Shown one piece after another: positions 4,932-32,214 of a stretch of DNA of 64,000 nucleotides. Location: contig NC_016024.1 in assembly GCF_000226295.1 (NCBI RefSeq), positions 1,037,501 through 1,101,500 on the forward strand. The letters run 5' to 3'. The translations under genes were made by a program, and so were the position numbers. The notes beneath the pieces were generated by a model. The model saw only the letters and a program-made list of their open reading frames with translations. It ran no database searches and was not told the DNA's origin. How positions within the stretch are numbered: the first letter of the stretch is position 1; the number at the start of each line of letters is the position of its first letter. Source of the DNA: Chloracidobacterium thermophilum B (GTDB lineage: Bacteria; Acidobacteriota; Blastocatellia; Chloracidobacteriales; Chloracidobacteriaceae).

Positions 4932-5480
4932 CTACTCGATGTCGCGGTCGTCGGCCAGGTCGCGGATAGCTGTGGCCTGAAGCCGTAACAGGCTGGTGAC
5001 GTAACCATCTTCCCATTCCGGCCCAACCGACAGGGTGCCCCGGACAAGCACCGGCTCTCCATAGTTGTTCAGTTTCATCTTCCCGGCGCGAACCAGAATC
5101 ATGTGCTGGAGCATGGGTGGCGCGCCAAAGCAGCAGCCATTGGCCGACTGGGTCAGGAGAAACTCGGTCTCTCCGGTAGGGCTGTACAGCGGCAGGGCAA
5201 AGCCGGCAATTTCGACCTGCTTGCCGTCAAGCGCCTGAAGTGCCGCCGGAGGCGGCGTTGGTGTCGTGGCGCGTGGGTCAAAGTCGTAGTTGAGGTTTTT
5301 GATGTAGTCGAAGCGGAGACGGATGACATCCCCCTGAACGTCCAGCGGCCGGCTTGCGCTGGATGACGGCCGAACTGCCGGTTGTGGGGCCAGCAGGCTA
5401 CCGACAACCATCAGCAACAGCAGCCCGCCCAGCCCAAAGTAAGGCGCATGTGCGCGCAGGTATGCGGAAAAGCGAGACAT
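4932..5480 (-). CDS. DUF3299 family membrane-anchored protein
   Basis: About 182 residues: a short cytoplasmic start, one hydrophobic segment (LGGLLLLMVVGSLL) and a periplasmic domain. The domain has the DUF3299 features: a predicted OB-like strand around VEIAGFALPL, then EFLLTQS and a conserved NGCCFGAPP cysteine pair, then MILVRAG. The family function is not established; the vicinal cysteines suggest metal or redox chemistry, but that is inference. An in-frame GTG at 5513 would add 11 residues; ATG 5480 was preferred because it places the membrane segment near the N-terminus. It lies between fur (convergent) and hemL (same strand, upstream). Confidence 0.65.
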   Translation of the reverse strand: MSRFSAYLRAHAPYFGLGGLLLLMVVGSLLAPQPAVRPSSSASRPLDVQGDVIRLRFDYIKNLNYDFDPRATTPTPPPAALQALDGKQVEIAGFALPLYSPTGETEFLLTQSANGCCFGAPPMLQHMILVRAGKMKLNNYGEPVLVRGTLSVGPEWEDGYVTSLLRLQATAIRDLADDRDIE

Positions 5481-5549
5481 CCGTAATCCGTAAGGCACAG
5501 AGGATAAAGCCACATCCAGGGAAGCTGGCAGGTTCCGGCACGACCGGCA

Positions 5550-6869
5550 TCAATGGTACGCCAGTTTATCCAGCGCCCGCTCTGCCGCGGCCAGCGTCGC
5601 TTCAACAACTTCATCCGTGTGGGCCAGGCCCATAAAGGCGGCTTCGTATTGTGACGGCGGCAGGTAAACCCCTTCGTGCAGCATGGCGTGGAAGAAGCGC
5701 CCGAAAAGCGCCGTGTCGCTTTTGGAGGCCGAGTCCCAGTCGGTCACTTCGCCGTCGGTGAAAAAGATCGTAAACATCGAGCCCACCCGGTTGAGTGTCG
5801 CCGGAAGGCCCGCCTTGCGGATAAGCTGGAGCAGCCCTTCAGAAACCTTTTTGGTCTGCCGGTCAAGCTGTTCGTACACGCCAGGCTGCTGGAGCAGGCG
5901 CAGCGTGGTCAGTCCGGCCGTCATAGCGACCGGGTTCCCGGACAGCGTGCCGGCCTGATAGACCGGGCCGGCCGGGGCAACGCAGTCCATGATGTCGGCC
6001 CGTCCGCCATAGGCTGCGGCCGGCAAGCCCCCGCCCATGACTTTCCCCAGGCAGGTCATATCCGGCAGGACACCGTAAAGCTCCTGCGCGCCGCCGCGCG
6101 CCAGCCGGAAGCCGGTCATCACCTCATCAAAGATGAGAACCGCACCATGCTTTTGCGTCAGGTCACGCAGCCCCTGCAAGTAGCCTGGCCTGGGTGGGAC
6201 GCAGCCCATATTGCCCACAACCGGCTCGACGATGACAGCCGCAATGTCATCGGGGTACGCCGCAAATGCCGCCTCGACGGCTGCCAGGTCGTTATATGGA
6301 ACCGTGATGGTCTGCTGGGAAACTTCAGCCGGCACGCCTGGACTGTCTGGCAGCCCCAGCGTCGCTACGCCGGAGCCGGCCTTGACCAGAAAAGCGTCTC
6401 CGTGACCGTGGTAGCAGCCAATAAACTTGACGATTTTGCGGCGTCCCGTAAAGCCGCGCGCCACGCGGATGGCCGCCATCGTGGCTTCCGTTCCGCTGCT
6501 CACCATGCGGACTTTTTCGATGGAAGGCACGAGGGAAACGATGAGTTCGGCGATTTCGACTTCGAGTTCCGTCGGCGCGCCAAATGAAGTGCCGCGTTCG
6601 ATGACCGAGTGGATGGCTGCCAGAACTTCCGGGTGTGCGTGTCCCAGAATCATCGGCCCCCACGAGCCGATGTAGTCCACGTAACGTTTGCCATCCACAT
6701 CGGTCATGTAGGGGCCGTGGGCCGAGCGGATGAACAGAGGCGTCCCACCCACGCCCCGAAAGGCCCGAACAGGACTGTTGACACCGCCGGGAATCACGGC
6801 GCGGGCTTGCTCAAAAAGGGTTTCGGAACGGCTGGGACTCACTTTTTCAGTTTCCATCGTGATTGGCAT
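5550..6869 (-). CDS. hemL: Glutamate-1-semialdehyde 2,1-aminomutase
   Basis: A 439-residue PLP enzyme making 5-aminolevulinate from glutamate-1-semialdehyde, the C5 entry into haem and bacteriochlorophyll synthesis. Family motifs are [11 protein letters not shown] near the N-terminus, [14 protein letters not shown], the CYHGHGD stretch, [11 protein letters not shown] and the PLP-lysine motif [12 protein letters not shown]. The frame stays open upstream to 6992, but the family start matches ATG 6869 (MPITMETEK) or ATG 6857. The gene fits the bchM found at 19.8 kb, since a phototroph needs large tetrapyrrole flux. It reads toward DUF3299, with 69 bases between. Confidence 0.95.
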
Positions 6870-7058
6870 GGTCGCTTTGCATTGAGGAACAGGAAAAAGG
6901 TCTTGGGGTTCAGCGTGGTTGTGGTGAATCCGAAAGGGAGAGCACCGAATGGCCACGGCTACCTTATGACCGTGGCGCACATCAACCTTCACCGTTGCTG
7001 ACAGCTTTTAGCGCCAACCCGTGTGCGAGTCAAAGGGCGGACGAAGAGTGGCTCCGGC

Positions 7059-8579
7059 TCACGGAGGGGGCGCCATGGTCGCCTCAAGAGCGTGCAGCAG
7101 CTCTCTGGCGCTGGCGTCCCGCCCCTCGGCCAGTTCCAGACCGCGCCGCAGTTCGTTGCGCGCCGCTTCGGCCTCTCCAACGGTAATGTACGCACGCCCG
7201 GCGCAGTAGCGCACGTCGGGCTGCTCCTTGAGCGCCTCTGGCAGCCCGGCGTACCGTTCGAGCAGTTCGAGCAGGCGGTCCGTGCCCGGCTTGGTGGCTG
7301 TCTGGTTCACCGGGCGCAGGTTGCCGGGGTTGTCACTCCGGGTGAGTTCGTTTCCGATCAGAAACTGAGTTTCATCGGCCAGGGTGGTCAGCAGGTTCTC
7401 GAACGTGTCCGCCGAGGCACCTTCATACTGGTCAAAAGCCGTCCGGTAGGCCGCCAGAGCCGCCGGTTTGTCACCTTTGAAACTGAGCGCAATGGCCAGG
7501 TTTTCATACGCCAGCGGGTAGAGTCCCTGGCGGAGAGCAATGGCTTTCCGAAACGCCTCAATCGCCGCATCGAGTTCGGGGGTGCCCTTGAGCTGACTGC
7601 GCAGCAGGCGGACATTGCCCAGGTTGAGGTAGGCCTCCGGGAAGTTTGGCTGCTGCCGGACGGCTGTCTGAAATTCCCGGATGGCCGCATCGTACGCCGC
7701 CCGCTTCTCGTACAGCCGCCCCAAGTTGTAGTGCGCCAGGGCGTAGCCTGCTTCCGGCTCCCGACCGCCCGGCACAGGTTTACCCAGGGCGGCCCGAAAG
7801 GCCTGTTCGGCGCGCTCCAGATCGCCCAGCGCCTCATACAGCAGCCCCAGGTTGTTCCAGGCTTCACGAAACTGGGGGCGGAGCTTGATGGCCGTCTGAT
7901 AGCTGGCTATAGCGGCTTCCAGCTCGCCACGGTGCGACTGCGCCATGCCCAGATTGAAGTGGGCGTTGGCCAGCCGTGGGGAGATGGCAAGCGCCGCCTG
8001 GTAGGCCTGGATGGCACGGTCAATGTCGCCGGTGCGATAGCAGGCTACCCCAAGGTTGACCTGCGCGGCCGCATCCCTGGGGTTGAGAGCCAGAACGGCC
8101 AGGAACTTGTCCCGTGCGTCCGCTTCCCGGCCCAGCTCCAGAAGCACACGTCCCCAGCCGGCAAGGGCTTCGGTAGCTTTCGGGTTGGCTTGCAGGGCCT
8201 GCTGGTAGAGCGGAATGGCCTCCTGATACCTGCCTTTGGCAGCCAGGACAGCGGCCCGCTCCGTGAGCGTCGGCTGGCGTTTCGGCAGGGTGATGACCTG
8301 CTGTTCGGTACGGGCCAGTGCCTCACCGACCTGCTGGATGCCGCGTTTCTGGGCAATTTCGATGGGAACCACCCGCAGCGCCGAAGTGCGGGCGCTGATG
8401 GTGGGATCAATCCGCAGCGAGGTTGTCCGTGACCGTTCTGCTGTCGGATCAATCCGCAGCGAGGATGGGTTTTGGTCGGGCCCCCGGACCCACCAGAACC
8501 CAAAGGTTTCGTAACCTCCGGTGACGGCAAGAAAGCACAGCGAGGCGACGATTGGTGTGGTCCGTGGTGCGTAAGGCAT
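7059..8579 (-). CDS. TPR-repeat protein, probably exported or membrane anchored
   Basis: About 506 residues starting at ATG 8579. The hydrophobic N-terminus (IVASLCFLAVTGG) could be a signal or anchor. Residues about 100-500 form at least nine tetratricopeptide repeats, recognisable by recurring A-x-x-x-L/Y-x-x-A-L-x-L-x-P periodicity such as AIQAYQAALAISP and AIASYQTAIKLRP. It should act as a protein-interaction scaffold; no catalytic motif is seen. Near the N-terminus a short unit, SLRIDPT, occurs twice, encoded by a direct DNA repeat at about 8412-8464. The gene diverges from the kinase at 8725, so the two may share a regulatory region. Confidence 0.8.
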   Translation of the reverse strand: MPYAPRTTPIVASLCFLAVTGGYETFGFWWVRGPDQNPSSLRIDPTAERSRTTSLRIDPTISARTSALRVVPIEIAQKRGIQQVGEALARTEQQVITLPKRQPTLTERAAVLAAKGRYQEAIPLYQQALQANPKATEALAGWGRVLLELGREADARDKFLAVLALNPRDAAAQVNLGVACYRTGDIDRAIQAYQAALAISPRLANAHFNLGMAQSHRGELEAAIASYQTAIKLRPQFREAWNNLGLLYEALGDLERAEQAFRAALGKPVPGGREPEAGYALAHYNLGRLYEKRAAYDAAIREFQTAVRQQPNFPEAYLNLGNVRLLRSQLKGTPELDAAIEAFRKAIALRQGLYPLAYENLAIALSFKGDKPAALAAYRTAFDQYEGASADTFENLLTTLADETQFLIGNELTRSDNPGNLRPVNQTATKPGTDRLLELLERYAGLPEALKEQPDVRYCAGRAYITVGEAEAARNELRRGLELAEGRDASARELLHALEATMAPPP

Positions 8580-8629: not shown

Positions 8630-8724
8630 TTGGCAGGACGTAGAGCAACAAGTTGCATACTGGCCTGGCTCAGCGTTTCTGTCCGTTTCCGTCTGCATGG
8701 CTGCGATGGGTGTGTTGTTTTCGT

Positions 8725-10452
8725 ATGAATGTCGAAACTGCGAGTCTGCTCGAACTCGGCGCTGTGATTGACGGAAAGTACCGGATTGATGCGCTGCTTG
8801 GGCAGGGCGGGATGGGGAAGGTGTTCCGTGTCACCCACCTTCAACTGAAAAAGACCTTTGCGCTGAAGGTGATGCTGTTCGACGTTGTCCGCAACGCCGA
8901 AGAGCGGCAGCACCGGCTGGCGCGCTTCCGGCGCGAGGCAGAAGCGCTGGCCCGGATCAGCCACCCCAACATCGTCATGGTGACGGATTTCGGGACGCTG
9001 GGCGAGGAACAGGTGCCCTACATCGTCATGGAGTTCATCGAGGGGACGACCTTGCGCGAACACTGCCGGGAACTTGGACCGGCACCCATCGAATTTGCCC
9101 TCGAAGTGACGTGCCAAATCTGCGCCGGTCTCCACACGGCGCACACCCAGGGCATCATTCACCGCGACCTGAAACCGGAAAATGTCATCCTGCAAACGTT
9201 GCCCGATGGGACAACCATGGCGCGGGTTCTGGATTTCGGCATTGCCAAACTTGCTCGTGAAGGCGGGGAAAAAAACGAAACCCTCACGCGCGAAAGTCCG
9301 GGAATCGGCTCGCCCGGCACGCCGAAATACATGGCGCCGGAACAAATCCTGGGGCAGCCGAGTGATCCGCGCACGGACGTGTTTGCCATCAACCTCATGC
9401 TCTACGAGATGCTGGCTGGTGCGCCGCCCAGTGTACCGGTCATCCTCGCCGAGCCAAAGCCGCTCTCCGAGCTTCGGCCGGACGTACCGGTTGAACTCGA
9501 CGCCATCATCAGGCGGGGCCTGTCAAAGCTCCCGGAGGAGCGCCAACCCTCAGCGCTGGAGTTGAAACGCGAGCTGGAGGCGCTCGAAAAAACCTTGACC
9601 TTGGAAGCCGCACTGCGCGACCGCACGACGCCGCCGGATGTGCTTACAACAACGCCTGGCTTTTCTCCGGTCACCGGGCAGAACCGTCCGGTACTCCCGA
9701 CGCTTCAGTTGGGGACGCTGTCGCCACCAGCGCGCACGGTGAGCGTGTGGCCCATCGCCCTTGGGTTGCTGCTGCTCGTGGCTGGGGGCGGCTGGTTTTT
9801 CTACCCGCAGATCAGCGCCGCGCTGAGTGGTAAGCCATACCTCTCACCAACGGCACTGCCCGCCGACCTGCAACCCAAGATGGTCGTTGTTCCAGGTGGC
9901 GAGACGCTGATCGGGACCAACCGGGGCGATAAGCTCTCCATCCCGGAGTTCAAAACGACCATTTTGCCCTTTCGGGTGTCGCAGACGCTTGTCAACAACG
10001 CTCAGTATGCGGAGTTCGTCAGGCGGACGAAGCATCGTGCGCCCACGACCTGGAACGGACCGTCACCACCGGTAAGCGATCTGGACAAGCCCGTGACTGG
10101 GGTGAGCTGGAATGACGCCGATGCCTACTGCCGGTGGCTTTCCCAGGAGACCGGTACGCGCTACCGGCTCATCAAGGAGTTTGAATGGGAATACCTGGCG
10201 CGCCAGCGTGACCGCAAGGGCGTCCGGGATTTGCTCGATACTGGTTTTCTGGAGTGGACGGCCGATAGCCTGACGGTCTATCCCGGCGGAAAAGGATTTG
10301 CGCCAAACCCCGACCTGCGTATCTTTCGTGGCCGGGATGACCGTGAAAATCCAAACGAAGGTGTCACCTACCGCTTTCCTCAGAAACCGGACTTTACCAA
10401 CAATCGGCTGGGCTTCCGGGTTGCGGCCGATCCCAAGGGGGGAGGGGAATGA
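8725..10452 (+). CDS. Ser/Thr kinase fused to a formylglycine-generating-enzyme-like domain
   Basis: A 575-residue membrane kinase. Residues about 16-285 are a Hanks-type kinase with glycine loop GQGGMG (26-31), Lys48, the catalytic HRDLKPEN motif with Asp148, DFG, and APE after the activation loop. A single transmembrane segment (about 339-362) follows a linker. Residues about 383-575 look like the FGE-sulfatase/SUMF1 fold: [13 protein letters not shown], then [18 protein letters not shown] and an EFEWEYLA-like segment. Such domains can be catalytic or merely ligand-binding; no conclusion is drawn. ATG 8725 begins just before the kinase fold. It overlaps the next kinase by four bases (ATGA), so the pair should be translationally coupled. 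Confidence 0.88.
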
Positions 10453-11459
10453 TGTCCACGTCGGGCACGGTGGAGTCCTACAAATCCCTCATCGGACAAA
10501 CCCTCAACGACAGCTACCGCGTCGAGAAGATGATCGGAAGTGGGGGGATGGGGGCTGTCTTTCTGGCCACCCACCTGACGCTGGGCAGCCCGGTGGCGAT
10601 CAAGGTGCTTTCCCCGGCGCTGACCTCCGATCCTTCGCTGGTCAAACGTTTTCAGCGCGAGGCCAGGATTGGCGGCCAGCTTACACACCCCAACATCGTC
10701 CGGGTGCAGGACTTTGGCAAGACGCCCGACGGGCTGCTCTTCATGGTCATGGAGTACGTTGCCGGGGAAACCCTGGCAGCCCGGTTGTCCCGGGTCGGGA
10801 AGCTCTCGCTCGAAGAGTGCCTTGCCATTCTGGAGCCGCTGTGTGACGCGCTCGAACTGGCCCACGGCAAAAACCTCCTGCATCGTGACCTCAAACCAGC
10901 CAATGTCCTTGTTGGGGAACTCAACGGCCGCCTCACTGTCAAGCTCCTTGATTTTGGCATCGTCAAGCTGCTCCAGCCTGACGAACAGGTTTCCCAGTTG
11001 ACGGCCGTCGGACAGGTCTTTGGGACGCCCCTCTACATGGCGCCCGAACATCTCATGGGGATGACCCTGACGCCCCAGGCCGACCTCTACAGCCTGGCCG
11101 TCATGACGTATGAACTGCTGACCGGGCAGCCCCCAGTGCAGCACGACGATCTGCGAAAGATGCTGGAGCTGAAAATGAAGCCTCCGCCTTCGGTGACGAC
11201 CTACGTTGCGTCCCTTCCTGCCGGGTTGGATGGCGTCTTTGCCAAAGCACTCCACGCCAATCCCGAACAGCGGTATGCCACGGCTATGGACTTTTTCCGG
11301 GGCTTGCAGTCTGTTTACAAGCAAAAGACCCAGGAAATGCTTTCAGCCGCTTTTGCCAAACAATCCAGTTCGGTGACAGATGAGACCTCGGACACCACAC
11401 GCCCCTCCAAAAGTTGGTTGGGAGGCTGGTGGAACAAGGTCTTTGGCAAGAAATCCTGA
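10449..11459 (+). CDS. Ser/Thr protein kinase, soluble
   Basis: A 336-residue Hanks-type kinase with GSGGMG at residues 30-35, Lys52, HRDLKPAN with catalytic Asp147, DFG and an APE-containing activation segment. Unlike its upstream partner it lacks a transmembrane segment, and it ends in a short polar tail, so it is probably cytosolic. It overlaps the upstream kinase through ATGA, which suggests a two-kinase operon and possible cross-phosphorylation. Its substrate is unknown; FHA and PP2C proteins at 15.7-18.5 kb are candidates by proximity only. Confidence 0.9.
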
Positions 11460-15400: not shown

Positions 15401-15679
15401 TGGGTTCAGAAAAACTTCTTGTGGCCAGGTTCACTGGCGAGTGAGCATAATCAGGGATCGGCTCCAGTCAGCCGGTAGGTCTGTTGCCCAGAGGCATACT
15501 TTTCGGCTTGTTTTGCCGATTTGAGCGTATGTATAGTCCATCCCACGGGGAGATTCAGGGAAACACACGCTTGGGGAAAGCAAGAGCTTGCCGAGGTGGT
15601 GTATCATATCGCTGGCCATCCGTCAGGTTTTTACTCCGAACCAACTGACCGAGATATTTTGAGACTGTGTGAGACGAGC

Positions 15680-16609
15680 ATGACACTCAACACTACGGGC
15701 GAAATAGCCTGCTCTGTATGTGGCGCATCAAATGCTGCGGACTGGTTGTATTGCCAGCAATGTGGCTCTCCATTGAAATCTGAGCCGGCTTCCGTAGCGC
15801 GCTCGGCTTCTCCAAGCAGCGGAAAGCCGGGGGAACCTCCGGTTGATATTCCGCCGACGCTTGTGGCGCCACCGGTTGTTCCGCCGACTGTGGTTGCCCA
15901 GCCAGCGGTACCGCCGCCCGTGCCGCCGACAGTCGTGGCCCAGCCGGTTGTTCCGCCGACTGTGGTTGCCCAACCAGCGGTACCGCCACCCGTGCCGCCA
16001 ACCGTAGTGGCTCAACCGTCTGTATCCACGCCCGTGCCGCCGACAGTCGTAGCCCAGCCGGTTGTTCCGCCGACTGTGGTTGCCCAACCAGCGGTACCGC
16101 CGCCTGTGCCGCCAACCGTAGTGGCTCAACCGTCGGTGCCCCCGCCTGTGCCACCCACGGTCATCGCGCGTTCCCCGGCAGCCGGTGGCGCGGCTGATAC
16201 GGTTGTCTGTGACCAGTGCGGCAAAATCAATCCGGCGACCAACAGTTTCTGTGCTGGCTGTGGAGCACCTTTGCCCTCTCCGCTGATGAAGACCATCGTC
16301 CGTACGTCGGAACGCCCCCCAACGCGGGTAGCGCGTCTGTGTCTCATCCAGGAAGGCGGCGGAGACGGGGAAGTTTATGAAATCAAGGGGGATGAGCTGA
16401 CGATTGGACGCAACTCAGGCGATATCCGATTTCCGCATGATGGCTACATGTCCGGCCGGCATGCCCGCATCATTCGCCGTGGCGATGAATTTATTCTTCA
16501 GGATGACAACTCGCGCAACGGCACGTTCAAGAAAATTGACGGCCCCGTGACACTTAAGTCCGGTGACATCCTGCTGATCGGAAAACAGTTGTTTCGCTTT
16601 GAGGTGTAG
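15680..16609 (+). CDS. Zinc-ribbon, proline-rich repeat and FHA-domain protein
   Basis: About 309 residues. A first zinc ribbon (Cys11, Cys14, Cys25, Cys28) is followed by a long low-complexity region built from VPPTVVAQP and AVPPP units. A second ribbon (CDQC, then CAGC) leads to a C-terminal FHA domain with GRNSGDIRF, SGRHARI and DDNSRNGTF. FHA domains bind phosphothreonine, so this is likely a reader of the local Ser/Thr kinases. ATG 15680 precedes the first ribbon; the frame is open further upstream to 15521 but without family resemblance. A PP2C phosphatase follows 80 bases later. Confidence 0.85.
   Translation: MTLNTTGEIACSVCGASNAADWLYCQQCGSPLKSEPASVARSASPSSGKPGEPPVDIPPTLVAPPVVPPTVVAQPAVPPPVPPTVVAQPVVPPTVVAQPAVPPPVPPTVVAQPSVSTPVPPTVVAQPVVPPTVVAQPAVPPPVPPTVVAQPSVPPPVPPTVIARSPAAGGAADTVVCDQCGKINPATNSFCAGCGAPLPSPLMKTIVRTSERPPTRVARLCLIQEGGGDGEVYEIKGDELTIGRNSGDIRFPHDGYMSGRHARIIRRGDEFILQDDNSRNGTFKKIDGPVTLKSGDILLIGKQLFRFEV
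15868..16170 (+). repeat. Coding tandem repeat (VPPTVVAQP / AVPPP units)
   Basis: Repeats of roughly 33 to 69 bases encode alternating VPPTVVAQP and AVPPPVPP units within the FHA protein. Copies are nearly identical at DNA level, including synonymous positions, which implies recent expansion or slippage. Copy number is likely to vary between strains. Confidence 0.85.
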
Positions 16610-27505: not shown

Positions 27506-27828
27506 GGCCGTTATCTGGGGTGACGTTGCGTGTGCGGACCAACGTCTGAAAACACAAGTGGAATGCTTGTGGCGAACCGGTCGCAAATCCAATCTTCAAA
27601 CCAAAGTCAATACGAGCCAACGTTGATATGGGCTGGCCAGTGATGTCCGCAGACACACCGCAAATCGTTGCCGCTGGCCAACCTGCCCCCACTATATCGC
27701 GTTTACCCTTGGCTGAACAGCAAGATACCAACGCTCTGGCGAGCCGCTGAGGAAGAACGTTGTTTGGCCGGTGAAAATTGGTCTAGTCTGCCCGTGTTTC
27801 TCATCCCTGCCAACACTGAGAGGTGGAT
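27506..27828. other. Intergenic region between divergent wzc-like gene and peroxiredoxin
   Basis: A 323-base stretch without a convincing gene. It must hold the promoters of both divergent neighbours. A TTGACT is readable on the minus strand near 27605-27610, but no good -10 element pairs with it. No hairpin, RNA gene or repeat was recognised. Confidence 0.5.
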
Positions 27829-28290
27829 ATGCCTGAAGTAGGTTCGCCTGCGCCGCCCTTCACCGCGCCCGACATGCACGGCAACCCCGTGAGTCTCGAA
27901 CAGTTCCGTGGTCAGAAAGTCGTGCTGTACTTCTATCCCAAAGACGATACGCCAGGCTGTACCAAAGAAGCCTGTAGCTTCCGCGATGCCTATGCCGACT
28001 ACCGGGAGAAGGGGATCGTCGTGCTGGGCGTGTCGCTCGATGACGAAGCCTCCCACCGGGCCTTTGCCGAAAAGTACCAGCTTCCCTTTACCCTGCTGGC
28101 CGATACCAACCATGCGGTTTCAGAAGCCTACGGCGTGTATGGCGAGCAGGAGTGGCAGGGCAAAAAGTTCATGGGCCTTGCCCGCAAGACCTTTCTCATT
28201 GATGAGCAGGGCATTCTGATCAAGGTATTCGACAAGGTTGACGTCGAAAATCACAGCCGGGAAGTGCTGGCTGCCTTTGGGTTGGCTTGA
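27829..28290 (+). CDS. bcp: Thiol peroxidase, Bcp/PrxQ-type peroxiredoxin
   Basis: A 153-residue atypical 2-Cys peroxiredoxin that reduces hydrogen and lipid peroxides in the cytosol. Peroxidatic Cys44 sits in DDTPGCTKEAC and the PrxQ-type resolving Cys49 lies five residues later. The fold continues with VVLGVSLDDEASH and RKTFLIDEQGIL. ATG 27829 has a GAGAGG six bases upstream, preferred over GTG 27823. An FHA-PrsW gene follows 36 bases later on the same strand. Confidence 0.94.
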   Translation: MPEVGSPAPPFTAPDMHGNPVSLEQFRGQKVVLYFYPKDDTPGCTKEACSFRDAYADYREKGIVVLGVSLDDEASHRAFAEKYQLPFTLLADTNHAVSEAYGVYGEQEWQGKKFMGLARKTFLIDEQGILIKVFDKVDVENHSREVLAAFGLA

Positions 28291-28326
28291 TGCCCCTGTG
28301 CCTTCGGCTGGGTCTGAGAGGAGAGT

Positions 28327-29856
28327 ATGCGACTCTGTCTGTCTGTTCTGAATGGTTCCCTGAACGGTCAGGTCTATCGGCTGCATGAGGGTGCGCTGCT
28401 TCTGGGGCGTGGCACGGATGCTGGAATCCGGTTCAACCCAGCCGTGGACAGTATGGTGTCGTCCCGCCACTGTCTGATTCAGGCTGAGCCGGACGGATTC
28501 TACGTGGTGGACAACCAGAGTACGAACGGTACATACGTCAACGGCCAGCGGATTCAGCGCGCCCGCCTCAATCATGGAGACATTATCGAGCTGGGCAACC
28601 CCGGTGTTCGTTTGCAGGTTGCTTTGGAAGCGCCAGTGACCAGCCCGGCGGCCTTTGCGCCGGGGGCGCCCACCTTCGGTCATCCGGCGGCTGCTGACGG
28701 AGGCACGGCGCGCCTGCGGGAAACGATTGCCGGTTTGGGGATGTACAACCCGGAGCGCAAGCCTATGGCGCCCGAAGCAGAGGCTTCGCCAATGGGGGTG
28801 TACATTGGCGCGGCGGTGGGCATCCTCGTCTGCCTGGTGCTCACCCTTGTTGTGGCGCTCATCGTGCTGTCCGAGTTGGGGATTGTCGTTGCCATCATTG
28901 CCACAGTAGTGGCGTTTGTCCCAGCATTTTTCTACATGCTGCCCTTTCTGTGGCTGGACCGGTATGACCCGGAACCGGTTTGGGCCCTGGCGGCGTCCTT
29001 TGCCTGGGGCGGTCTGGTGGCCGTTGTGGTGTCCTACATCCTGAACTCACTCTTTGGAGCCATCGCTTTCAGTGTGGGGGGCGAAGTCGCCGGGAACATC
29101 GTGGGTGGCGTGATTTCGGCGCCCATTGTGGAAGAGGGGTCGAAGGGACTGGGGCTGCTGCTCATATTGCTGTTCCTCCGCCGGGAGTTCGACGACATCG
29201 TGGATGGGGTGGTCTATGGCAGCTTCATTGCCCTTGGTTTTGCCACCGTGGAGAACATTCTCTATTACGGGCGGAGCCTGCTCGGTGGTGGGCTGGAGAG
29301 ACTGCTGATCGTCTTCATCATGCGGGGCATCATGTCTCCCTTTGCCCACGTGACCTTCACGGCAATGACCGGCATCGGGTGTGGTCTGGCGCGGGAGTCC
29401 CATAATCTTGCCGTGCGCATTCTGGCGCCGCTCGGTGGCTACATCCTGGCGGTCATCCTGCACATGGTCTGGAATGGCATGGCTACCTTTTTAGGCGCTG
29501 GCTTTCTCATTGGCTACGCCCTGTTTGAAGTGCCGTTCTTTCTGGCTTTCATTGGCTTTCTCATCTATGTTGCGCGGCGCGAGGGGAAGATTCTCCGGGA
29601 GATGCTGTCTGTCGAGGTTGCCCGCGGCCTCATCACGCCGGAACAATTGGCTATTGCCACCTCCACCCTCCGCCGTACCCTGTGGCCGCTCCAGGGGAAC
29701 TTTGCCGCGCGCCGCGCTTTCCTCCGCAACGTCTCGAAGCTGGGACTTTCCTACTGGCACGTTCAGCGGGCCGTGGCCGCCCAAAGTGAAACCCGTAGCC
29801 TGCCGCAGATTCCACGGCTGCAAGCTGAAATCCTCCGTTTACGGGAGCAGGTCTGA
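28327..29856 (+). CDS. FHA domain fused to a PrsW-type intramembrane protease
   Basis: A 509-residue fusion. Residues about 1-90 form an FHA domain (LLLGRGTDAGIRF, SSRHCLI, NQSTNGTYVNG) expected to bind phosphothreonine. After a linker come about eight hydrophobic segments with PrsW/CPBP-clan motifs: APIVEEGSKGLG (the double glutamate), REFDDIVDGVVYGSFIALGFA, ENILYY and FAHVTFTAMTG with a conserved histidine. PrsW proteins are glutamic-type membrane proteases that cut anti-sigma factors. A C-terminal cytosolic part of about 90 residues follows. The fusion suggests proteolysis gated by Ser/Thr phosphorylation, which is inference. The target is unknown. Confidence 0.85.
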   Translation: MRLCLSVLNGSLNGQVYRLHEGALLLGRGTDAGIRFNPAVDSMVSSRHCLIQAEPDGFYVVDNQSTNGTYVNGQRIQRARLNHGDIIELGNPGVRLQVALEAPVTSPAAFAPGAPTFGHPAAADGGTARLRETIAGLGMYNPERKPMAPEAEASPMGVYIGAAVGILVCLVLTLVVALIVLSELGIVVAIIATVVAFVPAFFYMLPFLWLDRYDPEPVWALAASFAWGGLVAVVVSYILNSLFGAIAFSVGGEVAGNIVGGVISAPIVEEGSKGLGLLLILLFLRREFDDIVDGVVYGSFIALGFATVENILYYGRSLLGGGLERLLIVFIMRGIMSPFAHVTFTAMTGIGCGLARESHNLAVRILAPLGGYILAVILHMVWNGMATFLGAGFLIGYALFEVPFFLAFIGFLIYVARREGKILREMLSVEVARGLITPEQLAIATSTLRRTLWPLQGNFAARRAFLRNVSKLGLSYWHVQRAVAAQSETRSLPQIPRLQAEILRLREQV

Positions 29857-29905
29857 AGCGTCCGAATGGTGGGCGCATGTGGCTTCTGCTCCGAAAGACT
29901 GAGCC

Positions 29906-31507
29906 ATGAACACACTGGAGTCTGCCCCCCGGCGCCTCGATTCCGGCATCCGTGCCAACCTGCGCTACGACTTCCCGGCCGGCGTCGTGGTCTTTCTCGT
30001 GGCCCTGCCTCTGTGTCTGGGGATTGCCCTGGCGTCCAATGCGCCTCTGTTTTCCGGCATCATTGCCGGCATCGTCGGGGGGATCATCATCGCTCCGCTT
30101 TCGGGTTCAGCCCTGTCGGTGAGCGGCCCGGCGGCCGGGCTGGCCGTGATTGTGGCCCAGGGGATTGCCACTGCTGGCGACTTTCGCGCGTTTCTTGCGG
30201 CGGTCGTGCTGGCCGGACTGTTTCAGATTGTCTTTGCCCTGATACGCGGCGGTGGGTTGGCGGATTACATTCCGAACTGCGTCATCAAAGGCATGCTGGC
30301 CGGCATTGGGATCGTCATCATCCTCAAGCAGATTCCCCATGCTTTGGGACGCGACCAGGACTTTACCTTCACCGATACCCTCAGCTTTCTCAATTTCGAG
30401 GAAAGCTCAACTATCGGCGCCATCATTGCCGGCATCTTCAGCGCCCAGCCGACGGCCGTCGGGATTACCCTGCTGTCTCTGGTGGTTCTCCTAGTCTGGG
30501 AGCATCCCCGGCTCAAGCAGATTCCATGGCTGATTTTGCTTCCCGGCCCGCTGGTGGTGGTCGTGTTGGGTCTGCTCATCAATGAGACACTGCGCTGGAG
30601 TGGAAGCCAGCTTTATCTCCGCGCTGAGGAAGCGCACCTGGTGGCCCTGCCGGTGGCAACTGACCTCCAGAGCTTCATCGCCCAGTTCACCTTCCCGGAT
30701 GTACAGGCACTGCAACGTGCCGAGATCATCAAGTTGGCCCTGACCTTGGCCGTTGTTGCCAGTCTCGAAACGCTGTTGTGCGTTGAGGCAAGCGACAAAA
30801 TGGACCCCTTCAAGCGGATTTCCCAGCCCAACCGGGAACTGTTTGCGCAGGGCGTGGGCAACATGGTGAGCGGGCTGATTGGCGGTCTGCCGCTCACGTC
30901 GGTCATCGTCCGCACCACGGCCAACATTTACGCCGGTGGACGAACCCGCATGTCAGCTTTCATCCACGGCCTCCTGCTGTTGTTTGCCGTGTTTTCGATT
31001 CCGGGGCTGCTCAACCGGATTCCCATTGCTTCTCTGGCGGCCATTCTCCTGCTCGTGGGCTACAAGCTGGCCAAACCGGAACTGTTCAAAGCGATGTATG
31101 CCCAGGGCTATGCGCAATTTGCTCCTTTTGTCGTTACGGTGGTGGCCATCGTGGCGACAGACCTTCTGGTGGGTATTGGTATCGGTCTTGTCTTTGGACT
31201 GTTCTTCGTCATCCGCGCCAACTACCGCTCAGCCGTCACGCTGGTCAGTCACGAAGACGCCTACCTGCTGCGCTTCAACAAGGACGCCACGTTCATCAAC
31301 AAGATTGAACTCAAGCGCAAGCTCCAGAGCATTCCCGATGGCGCAACCCTGTTCATTGACGGCACACGTGCGCTCTACGTGGATCAGGACATCCTCGACG
31401 TGGTGAATGAATTTCGAGCTGCCGCCAGGTATCGGAATATCACGGTGAGCACAAGTAACTTCGACGAAAAGGCGCCGCGTCTGGCGCAACCACAACCGGC
31501 CCACTGA
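29906..31507 (+). CDS. SulP-family anion transporter
   Basis: A 533-residue SLC26/SulP permease with about 12 to 14 membrane segments. The start has [24 protein letters not shown]; then come [14 protein letters not shown] and [10 protein letters not shown], and [18 protein letters not shown] in the middle. It ends in a short STAS-like domain ([20 protein letters not shown]). Members move sulfate or bicarbonate, often with sodium or protons. The beta-carbonic anhydrase 26 bases downstream suggests bicarbonate, as with BicA-like partners; this is inference. A phototroph could use it for carbon supply or pH balance. Confidence 0.9.
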
Positions 31508-31533
31508 CCAGACACCTCAAAGCGAGCACCCCT

Positions 31534-32214
31534 ATGACTGAACGTTTGCCAGAGTCGTCCGTCAACGGCATGAACGAGTACCGCAAGCTGTTGCTTGCCA
31601 ACAAAGCCTGGGCACAGGAAAAGCTTGACTTGCGTCCCGATTACTTCATCCGCATGAAGGATGTCCAGTCGCCGGCCTACCTGTGGATCGGGTGTTCTGA
31701 CAGTCGTGTGCCGGCCGAGGACATTACGGGCACGGAGCCGGGCGAACTGTTTGTCCATCGCAACGTGGCGAATCTCGTCATCCACACGGACATCAATCTG
31801 ATGAGCGTCGTCGAGTACGCCATTGATGTGCTGGGCGTGCGCCACGTCATCATTTGCGGGCATTACAACTGCGGTGGTGTCAAAGCTGCCATGTCGCGCA
31901 AGAGCTTTGGCCTCATCAACAAGTGGCTGCGCCACATCAAGGACGTGTACCGTAACTATGCCCGCGAACTGGAATCATTCACCGACCCGGAGGCCCGCTT
32001 CCGCCGACTCGTCGAACTCAACACAATTGAACAGGTGCGGAATCTCGCTGAGACTTCCATCGTCCAGAAATCCTGGCTCAAGCATGGACGCCCATGGCTG
32101 CACGGATGGGTGTATGACATCCGCACCGGTTTGCTTCAGGAACTGACCTTGATTCGGCCGGGCGATTTGCCCGACGATATTTACCGTTACGAATTTCCGC
32201 CGGAGTCGCTGTAG
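31534..32214 (+). CDS. can: Beta-class carbonic anhydrase
   Basis: A 226-residue zinc enzyme interconverting CO2 and bicarbonate. Zinc ligands are Cys54 in GCSDSRVP, His110 and Cys113 in GHYNCGG, with the Asp56-Arg58 catalytic dyad. The C-terminal [12 protein letters not shown] is typical of the Escherichia coli Can subgroup. ATG 31534 is used; ATG 31570 is an alternative. It lies 26 bases after the SulP transporter and nine bases before the SDR gene, in a same-strand cluster. Confidence 0.96.

Follow-up and report, generated by a model that had tools for sequence, protein, structure and literature searches.

A gene of Chloracidobacterium thermophilum B, located within a 64,000-nucleotide stretch of DNA that was analysed as a whole (the window), encodes an FHA domain joined to a PrsW-type intramembrane protease domain. 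This FHA-PrsW protein is a real and conserved fusion that, judged by its residues, is probably active. Both halves look functional, as the FHA pocket and the PrsW motifs are essentially invariant in 80 distinct relatives. With a probability of about one half, the protein acts as a kinase-addressed intramembrane protease, in which the FHA domain would dock a threonine-phosphorylated membrane partner for PrsW to cut.

The fused protein and its two halves

The open reading frame begins with ATG behind a purine-rich stretch, and its product runs from the N-terminal FHA domain through a disordered linker and the PrsW-type membrane domain to a conserved tail (Table 1). It is no chance reading frame, since orthologs of 80-96% identity with the same neighbor occur in the genus and the membrane part, modeled alone with 56 sequences, reaches a mean pLDDT of 93.3. 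The best named relative among the best 80 of 341 matches belongs to an uncultured Chloracidobacterium (81% identity). The gene is the single PrsW match in the C. thermophilum B genome, which harbors at least 36 kinase matches and 22 FHA matches.

Table 1. Features of the window around and upstream of the FHA-PrsW gene
Feature	Position	Strand	Basis or remark
Ser/Thr kinase with FGE-sulfatase domain, candidate local kinase	8653..10452	+	
Ser/Thr kinase, candidate local kinase	10449..11459	+	
PP2C-type phosphatase, one predicted membrane helix	16690..18474	+	
Upstream neighbor, Bcp-type peroxiredoxin (AhpC/TSA)	27823..28290	+	Pfam
FHA-PrsW fusion gene, 509 aa	28327..29856	+	ORF and Pfam
FHA domain	28327..28632	+	Fold, residues 1-102; Pfam match 25-90
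Disordered linker, residues 103-154	28633..28788	+	pLDDT < 50 for 104-154
PrsW-protease domain, residues 216-407	28972..29547	+	Pfam; 8 predicted membrane helices counting flanks
Motif 1, E269-E270-G-S-K273	29131..29145	+	E269, E270, K273 in 80/80
Motif 2, F305-A-T-V-E309-N310	29239..29256	+	F305, E309, N310 in 80/80
Motif 3, H341-V-T-F-T345	29347..29361	+	H341, T345 in 80/80
Motif 4, H379-M-V-W-N383	29461..29475	+	H379, W382, N383 in 80/80
Conserved C-terminal tail, residues 421-509, predicted cytosolic, T489-x-S491	29587..29853	+	Helices in predicted fold
Downstream neighbor, SulP-family anion transporter	29906..31507	+	Pfam
Downstream neighbor, beta carbonic anhydrase	31534..32214	+	Pfam

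The FHA half matches Pfam FHA (PF00498) over residues 25-90 with 68 bits against a cut-off of 20.7 (E 1e-18) and contains the stretches GRGTDAGIRF and NQSTNGTYVNG. From these stretches and from EE and HxxxT-type motifs in the membrane body, an initial annotation had proposed an FHA domain fused to a PrsW-type protein, a proposal borne out by two Pfam matches well above their cut-offs. Residues R28, S45, H48, N67, and G68, which we take to be the phosphothreonine-pocket positions of FHA domains, are consistent with such a pocket. Among 80 distinct proteins with the FHA-PrsW order (distinctness being judged on the last 200 residues), G27, R28, S45, H48, D62, G68, and T69 are kept in all and N67 in 79. 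An AlphaFold2 model of the whole protein displays a confident FHA domain, a disordered linker at residues 104-154, and a helical membrane body. The solved structures nearest to the predicted FHA fold are OdhI and GarA (Z about 18), and the domain is a putative phosphothreonine reader. The fold and the pocket are shared with GarA, OdhI, and FhaA of Actinobacteria; to our knowledge, these proteins are soluble or joined to other partners, with no membrane protease.

The membrane half matches Pfam PrsW-protease (PF13367) over residues 216-407 with 180.4 bits against a cut-off of 23.5 (E 3.8e-53). Four motifs, E269-E270-x-x-K273, F305-x-x-x-E309-N310, H341-x-x-x-T345, and H379-x-x-W-N383, lie in membrane helices, where the published PrsW definition places EExxK, FxxxE, H, and HxxxD/N. 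The EE and HxxxT motifs noted in the initial annotation are both real, although HxxxT is the third PrsW motif and the fourth is HxxWN. The annotation had named loss of the EE pair or the histidine, or a lack of similarity to PrsW, as evidence against it; E269, E270, H341, and H379 are present in 80/80 fused proteins, as are K273, F305, E309, N310, T345, W382, and N383. An alignment of 56 membrane domains, FHA-less ones from three phyla included, reveals that the motif residues are invariant and W382 nearly so.

The Bacillus subtilis PrsW, the site-1 protease that cuts RsiW (PMC4602095), shares the Pfam family and the four motifs with FHA-PrsW. The protein could accordingly be read as a classical PrsW that makes the site-1 cut in an anti-sigma factor, FHA serving only for fine tuning, and the complete set of motif residues agrees with this. 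In contrast with the B. subtilis enzyme, FHA-PrsW adds an FHA domain and scores 56.3 bits against the cut-off of 225 for the NCBIfam PrsW equivalog NF033739, so it is a PrsW-family member and not an equivalog of that enzyme. In addition, no anti-sigma gene was found as an adjacent substrate among the neighbors examined, and the classical reading is unlikely.

The membrane part was folded separately because FHA and FHA-like structures filled the first 50 rows when the complete model was used as the query of the fold search. Foldseek with the membrane part alone returned no match below E 0.29. The best VIA-align match is chain C of 9c7u from the human BOS complex, with a Z of 13.5 (rmsd 4.4, 191 aligned) on a scale where values under about 13 may carry little meaning for helical bundles, and it stands well above the remaining matches. 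We take this chain to be TMEM147, an APH-1-like protein. The superfamily includes APH-1, which is itself non-catalytic, and the membrane domain might by analogy have ceased to be a protease and become a scaffold under phospho-regulation, or it might process substrates of another class in the manner of CPBP enzymes. This reading is very improbable given that EExxK, FxxxEN, H, and HxxWN are complete in 80/80 fused proteins. The alignment to Rce1 (4cad; Z 5.9, rmsd 4.2, 163 aligned) falls under the tool's level for a meaningful match. A published PrsW model (PMC4602095) puts EExxK and HxxxD like the conserved residues of type II CAAX proteases.

Hydropathy gives eight membrane segments, the number ascribed to most representatives of the PrsW-protease family. 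Positive charge is carried by the tail and by the loops after TM2, 4, and 6, and both protein ends are therefore predicted to be cytoplasmic; loop 5, with two K+R, does not fit neatly. Fold and topology are predictions for this protein.

The predicted cytosolic tail carries the motif T489-x-S491-[LF], which could make the FHA domain an intramolecular switch that binds phosphothreonine in its own tail and thereby gates the protease, opening or closing it. Of the fused proteins, 79/80 retain T489 and S491 (with one gap), the +3 position is F or L in 77/80, and the +3 preference of FHA domains is compatible with these residues. However, the same motif is present in three FHA-less proteins (L022, L117, and L119) and need not be an FHA ligand. 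As a built-in ligand it was set aside, and the switch is kept as a weak and rather improbable rival.

Distribution and probable repeated joining

The initial annotation had called for a search in other Acidobacteriota, and the fusion is found there. In Blastocatellia, 58 relatives were surveyed, and 44 genomes harbor a total of 56 PrsW matches. FHA is present on 50 of these, consisting of 31 FHA-PrsW proteins and 19 of a second arrangement, PrsW-zinc ribbon-FHA, in which a C-terminal FHA lies behind zinc ribbons. FHA is absent from four (L011, L012, L018, and L022), and two are cut by contig ends (L006 and L166). The fusion of FHA and PrsW is not rare.

An even phylum sample of 297 genomes contains PrsW in 85. 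Outside Blastocatellia, 7 of 70 PrsW matches carry FHA (L031-L035, L037, and L038); L040, another match there, is truncated, and L132 and L133 were excluded as duplicates of L031 and L039. Ten of these 70 matches were not recovered by our own PrsW profile (L128, L130, L174, L205, L206, and L208-L212), and no FHA reading frame was found in these ten loci. In L039/L133, residues ∼530-625 display repeated threonine motifs (TRPL, TIRT, and TSPI) where the related L031 has FHA; this tail could be a phosphothreonine ligand and not a reader.

The fusion was detected in none of 30 Myxococcota loci examined, from a list with about 100 further matches, and in one of the 30 Chloroflexota loci given by the search (L288). 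Fourteen of 20 further Chloroflexota reading frames have an FHA match, a figure that is not a rate as they were picked for long frames. A restriction of the fusion to Acidobacteriota is unsupported, the contig scan covering the best 80 of 341 relatives.

Trees built on chosen subsets of 62 and 55 sequences place the Acidobacteriota FHA-PrsW proteins in one clade (support 99/95) and the PrsW-zinc ribbon-FHA proteins in a separate one (93/88). L031, which has PrsW followed by FHA without ribbons (Pfam FHA at 487-550), groups with FHA-less relatives, and the Chloroflexota FHA-PrsW group is placed elsewhere in the tree (100/99). This pattern suggests about four separate joinings of FHA and PrsW, one of them in Chloroflexota. 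Intervening losses of FHA between joinings are possible, and support is low at some deep forks. In the first tree, three FHA-less Chloroflexota proteins fall inside the Acidobacteriota group at a weak fork (87/70) that is not in the second; the second tree tags L289 as FHA-less, and its N-terminus resembles a degraded FHA.

The fused FHA of Chloroflexota keeps GR and SREH and has lost the NGT stretch, with a Pfam FHA match of E 3.3e-14 in L288. Its sequence suggests a degraded or altered reader, and phospho-binding by it is doubtful. The NGT-less form is seen in L288, L302-L307, L311-L313, L315, L317, and L318.

The domain pairing itself is already known in print. Zhang et al. 2012 (Biol Direct 7:18, PMC3482391) state that PrsW occurs in several bacteria as a fusion with FHA, PilZ, Zn-ribbon, and cyclic nucleotide binding domains, and they regard such proteins as more likely to be signaling peptidases. 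The initial annotation had called the combination not commonly described; this is not supported, as the class of fusion is named there and the 50/56 count argues against rarity. The domain pairing and the proposal that cleavage is coupled to the signal sensed by the attached domain are the same as here, but the passage is a single sentence that gives neither organism nor gene context. The present analysis adds to this pairing counts of conserved residues, two arrangements within a single class, repeated joinings, and neighborhoods with kinase and phosphatase genes, and the evidence that the pairing is common, repeated, and tied to kinases and phosphatases is new. Beyond PMC3482391, the literature search found no paper pairing FHA with PrsW. 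LIC_20173 of Leptospira, described in PMC12943098 as a PrsW-PilZ fusion, likewise joins PrsW to a signal-reading domain, but has PilZ (c-di-GMP-type) where FHA-PrsW has FHA.

Kinase and phosphatase genes and the proposed mode of action

Downstream of FHA-PrsW, Pyrinomonadaceae-like relatives have a gene for a Ser/Thr kinase (STPK) with PEGA and double zinc ribbon domains, zinc-ribbon genes, and an FHA-STPK gene. Among the 50 loci whose downstream DNA extends for 4 kb or more, an STPK starts within 4 kb downstream in 23 and is absent from that range in 27; within 4 kb upstream, an STPK occurs in 2 of 53 loci. One genus of this family has 18-29 kinase matches per 3-4 Mb genome, about one per 160 kb. 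By chance, about one downstream case would be expected in 50 loci, a comparison to be read with the shared ancestry of the loci. Most of the kinase synteny is contributed by a single family in which housekeeping neighbors are also kept, and hence it does not represent many independent events. An FG-GAP protein with one predicted membrane helix is encoded upstream in many relatives; it was considered as a substrate on the grounds of its position and set aside.

The second arrangement is tied to a phosphatase. In 15 of the 19 Blastocatellia cases, the gene immediately preceding PrsW-zinc ribbon-FHA encodes an FHA-GAF-SpoIIE phosphatase; 14 of these cases were seen directly, and in one (G032) the gene is apparently split over L156/L166. 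The phosphatase gene is missing ahead of L140, L141, L142, and L155. Pfam identified the full FHA-GAF-SpoIIE set in L143 and L146; the others were assigned by similarity, and some of them are cut at the end of the stretch. The gene pair is seen in L143 (1-1686 and 1688-2956), L144, L146, L150, L151, and others.

In L084, an STPK-FGE gene (4992-7997) ends three bases ahead of the FHA-PrsW start. FHA proteins often bind their kinase, as in the case of mycobacterial FHA proteins, and one STPK in the window has a predicted membrane helix. These points are compatible with FHA as a localization or clustering module that parks the protease by an activated, autophosphorylated kinase and leaves the choice of substrate to the membrane domain. 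This role is rather unlikely: clustering by itself leaves unexplained a joining at either end, about four times, although this point is not decisive against it. The L084 kinase has the same domain pair as the window kinase at 8653-10452.

The favored mechanism, that of a kinase-addressed protease, is built on the observation that the fusion exists and is conserved, on the functional residues present in both halves, and on the kinase/phosphatase gene ties in relatives. The FHA domain would sit in the cytoplasm on its flexible linker. A Ser/Thr kinase would phosphorylate a threonine on a membrane partner, which might be a regulator anchored in the membrane or else a membrane kinase, and FHA would bind this phosphothreonine. 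Docking would then present the membrane helix or juxtamembrane segment of the partner to the PrsW site (EExxK, FxxxEN, H, and HxxWN), the cut would free or destroy its cytosolic part, and a PP2C/SpoIIE-type phosphatase would reset the phospho-mark. Protease activity and phospho-dependent substrate choice are putative in this scheme, as are the identity of the substrate and any link to an anti-sigma factor.

Bacterial regulated intramembrane proteolysis is generally portrayed as a response to triggers outside the cell. If the cytosolic end of the protein reads phosphothreonine, kinases could trigger cutting from inside. The roughly four joinings and the kinase/SpoIIE clusters tentatively point to phosphothreonine-gated intramembrane proteolysis as a general bacterial signaling mode, at somewhat less than even odds; nearly all PrsW proteases of Blastocatellia would then be so controlled. 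The repeated joining of FHA, together with the kinase/phosphatase gene clusters, provides concrete genes for testing inside-triggered cutting.

The locus in Chloracidobacterium

The initial annotation had linked the protein to local Ser/Thr kinases. The link gains from the kinase and SpoIIE-type phosphatase neighbors in relatives, but the window kinases nearest to FHA-PrsW lie 17-20 kb upstream and none is adjacent in its own genus. A gene at 15521-16609, which adjoins the PP2C gene, encodes a protein that combines zinc ribbons and a long repeat of the PPTVVAQP type with a C-terminal FHA (match at 16400-16582), and belongs to a kinase-FHA-phosphatase stretch at 8.6-18.5 kb.

Across the genus, bcp adjoins FHA-PrsW in six of six loci and SulP in five of six, the sixth having carbonic anhydrase directly after. 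The gene order might tie the protease to bicarbonate/sulfate uptake or to oxidative stress. In the window, bcp, FHA-PrsW, SulP, and carbonic anhydrase lie close together on one strand at 27823-32214, an arrangement kept across the genus.
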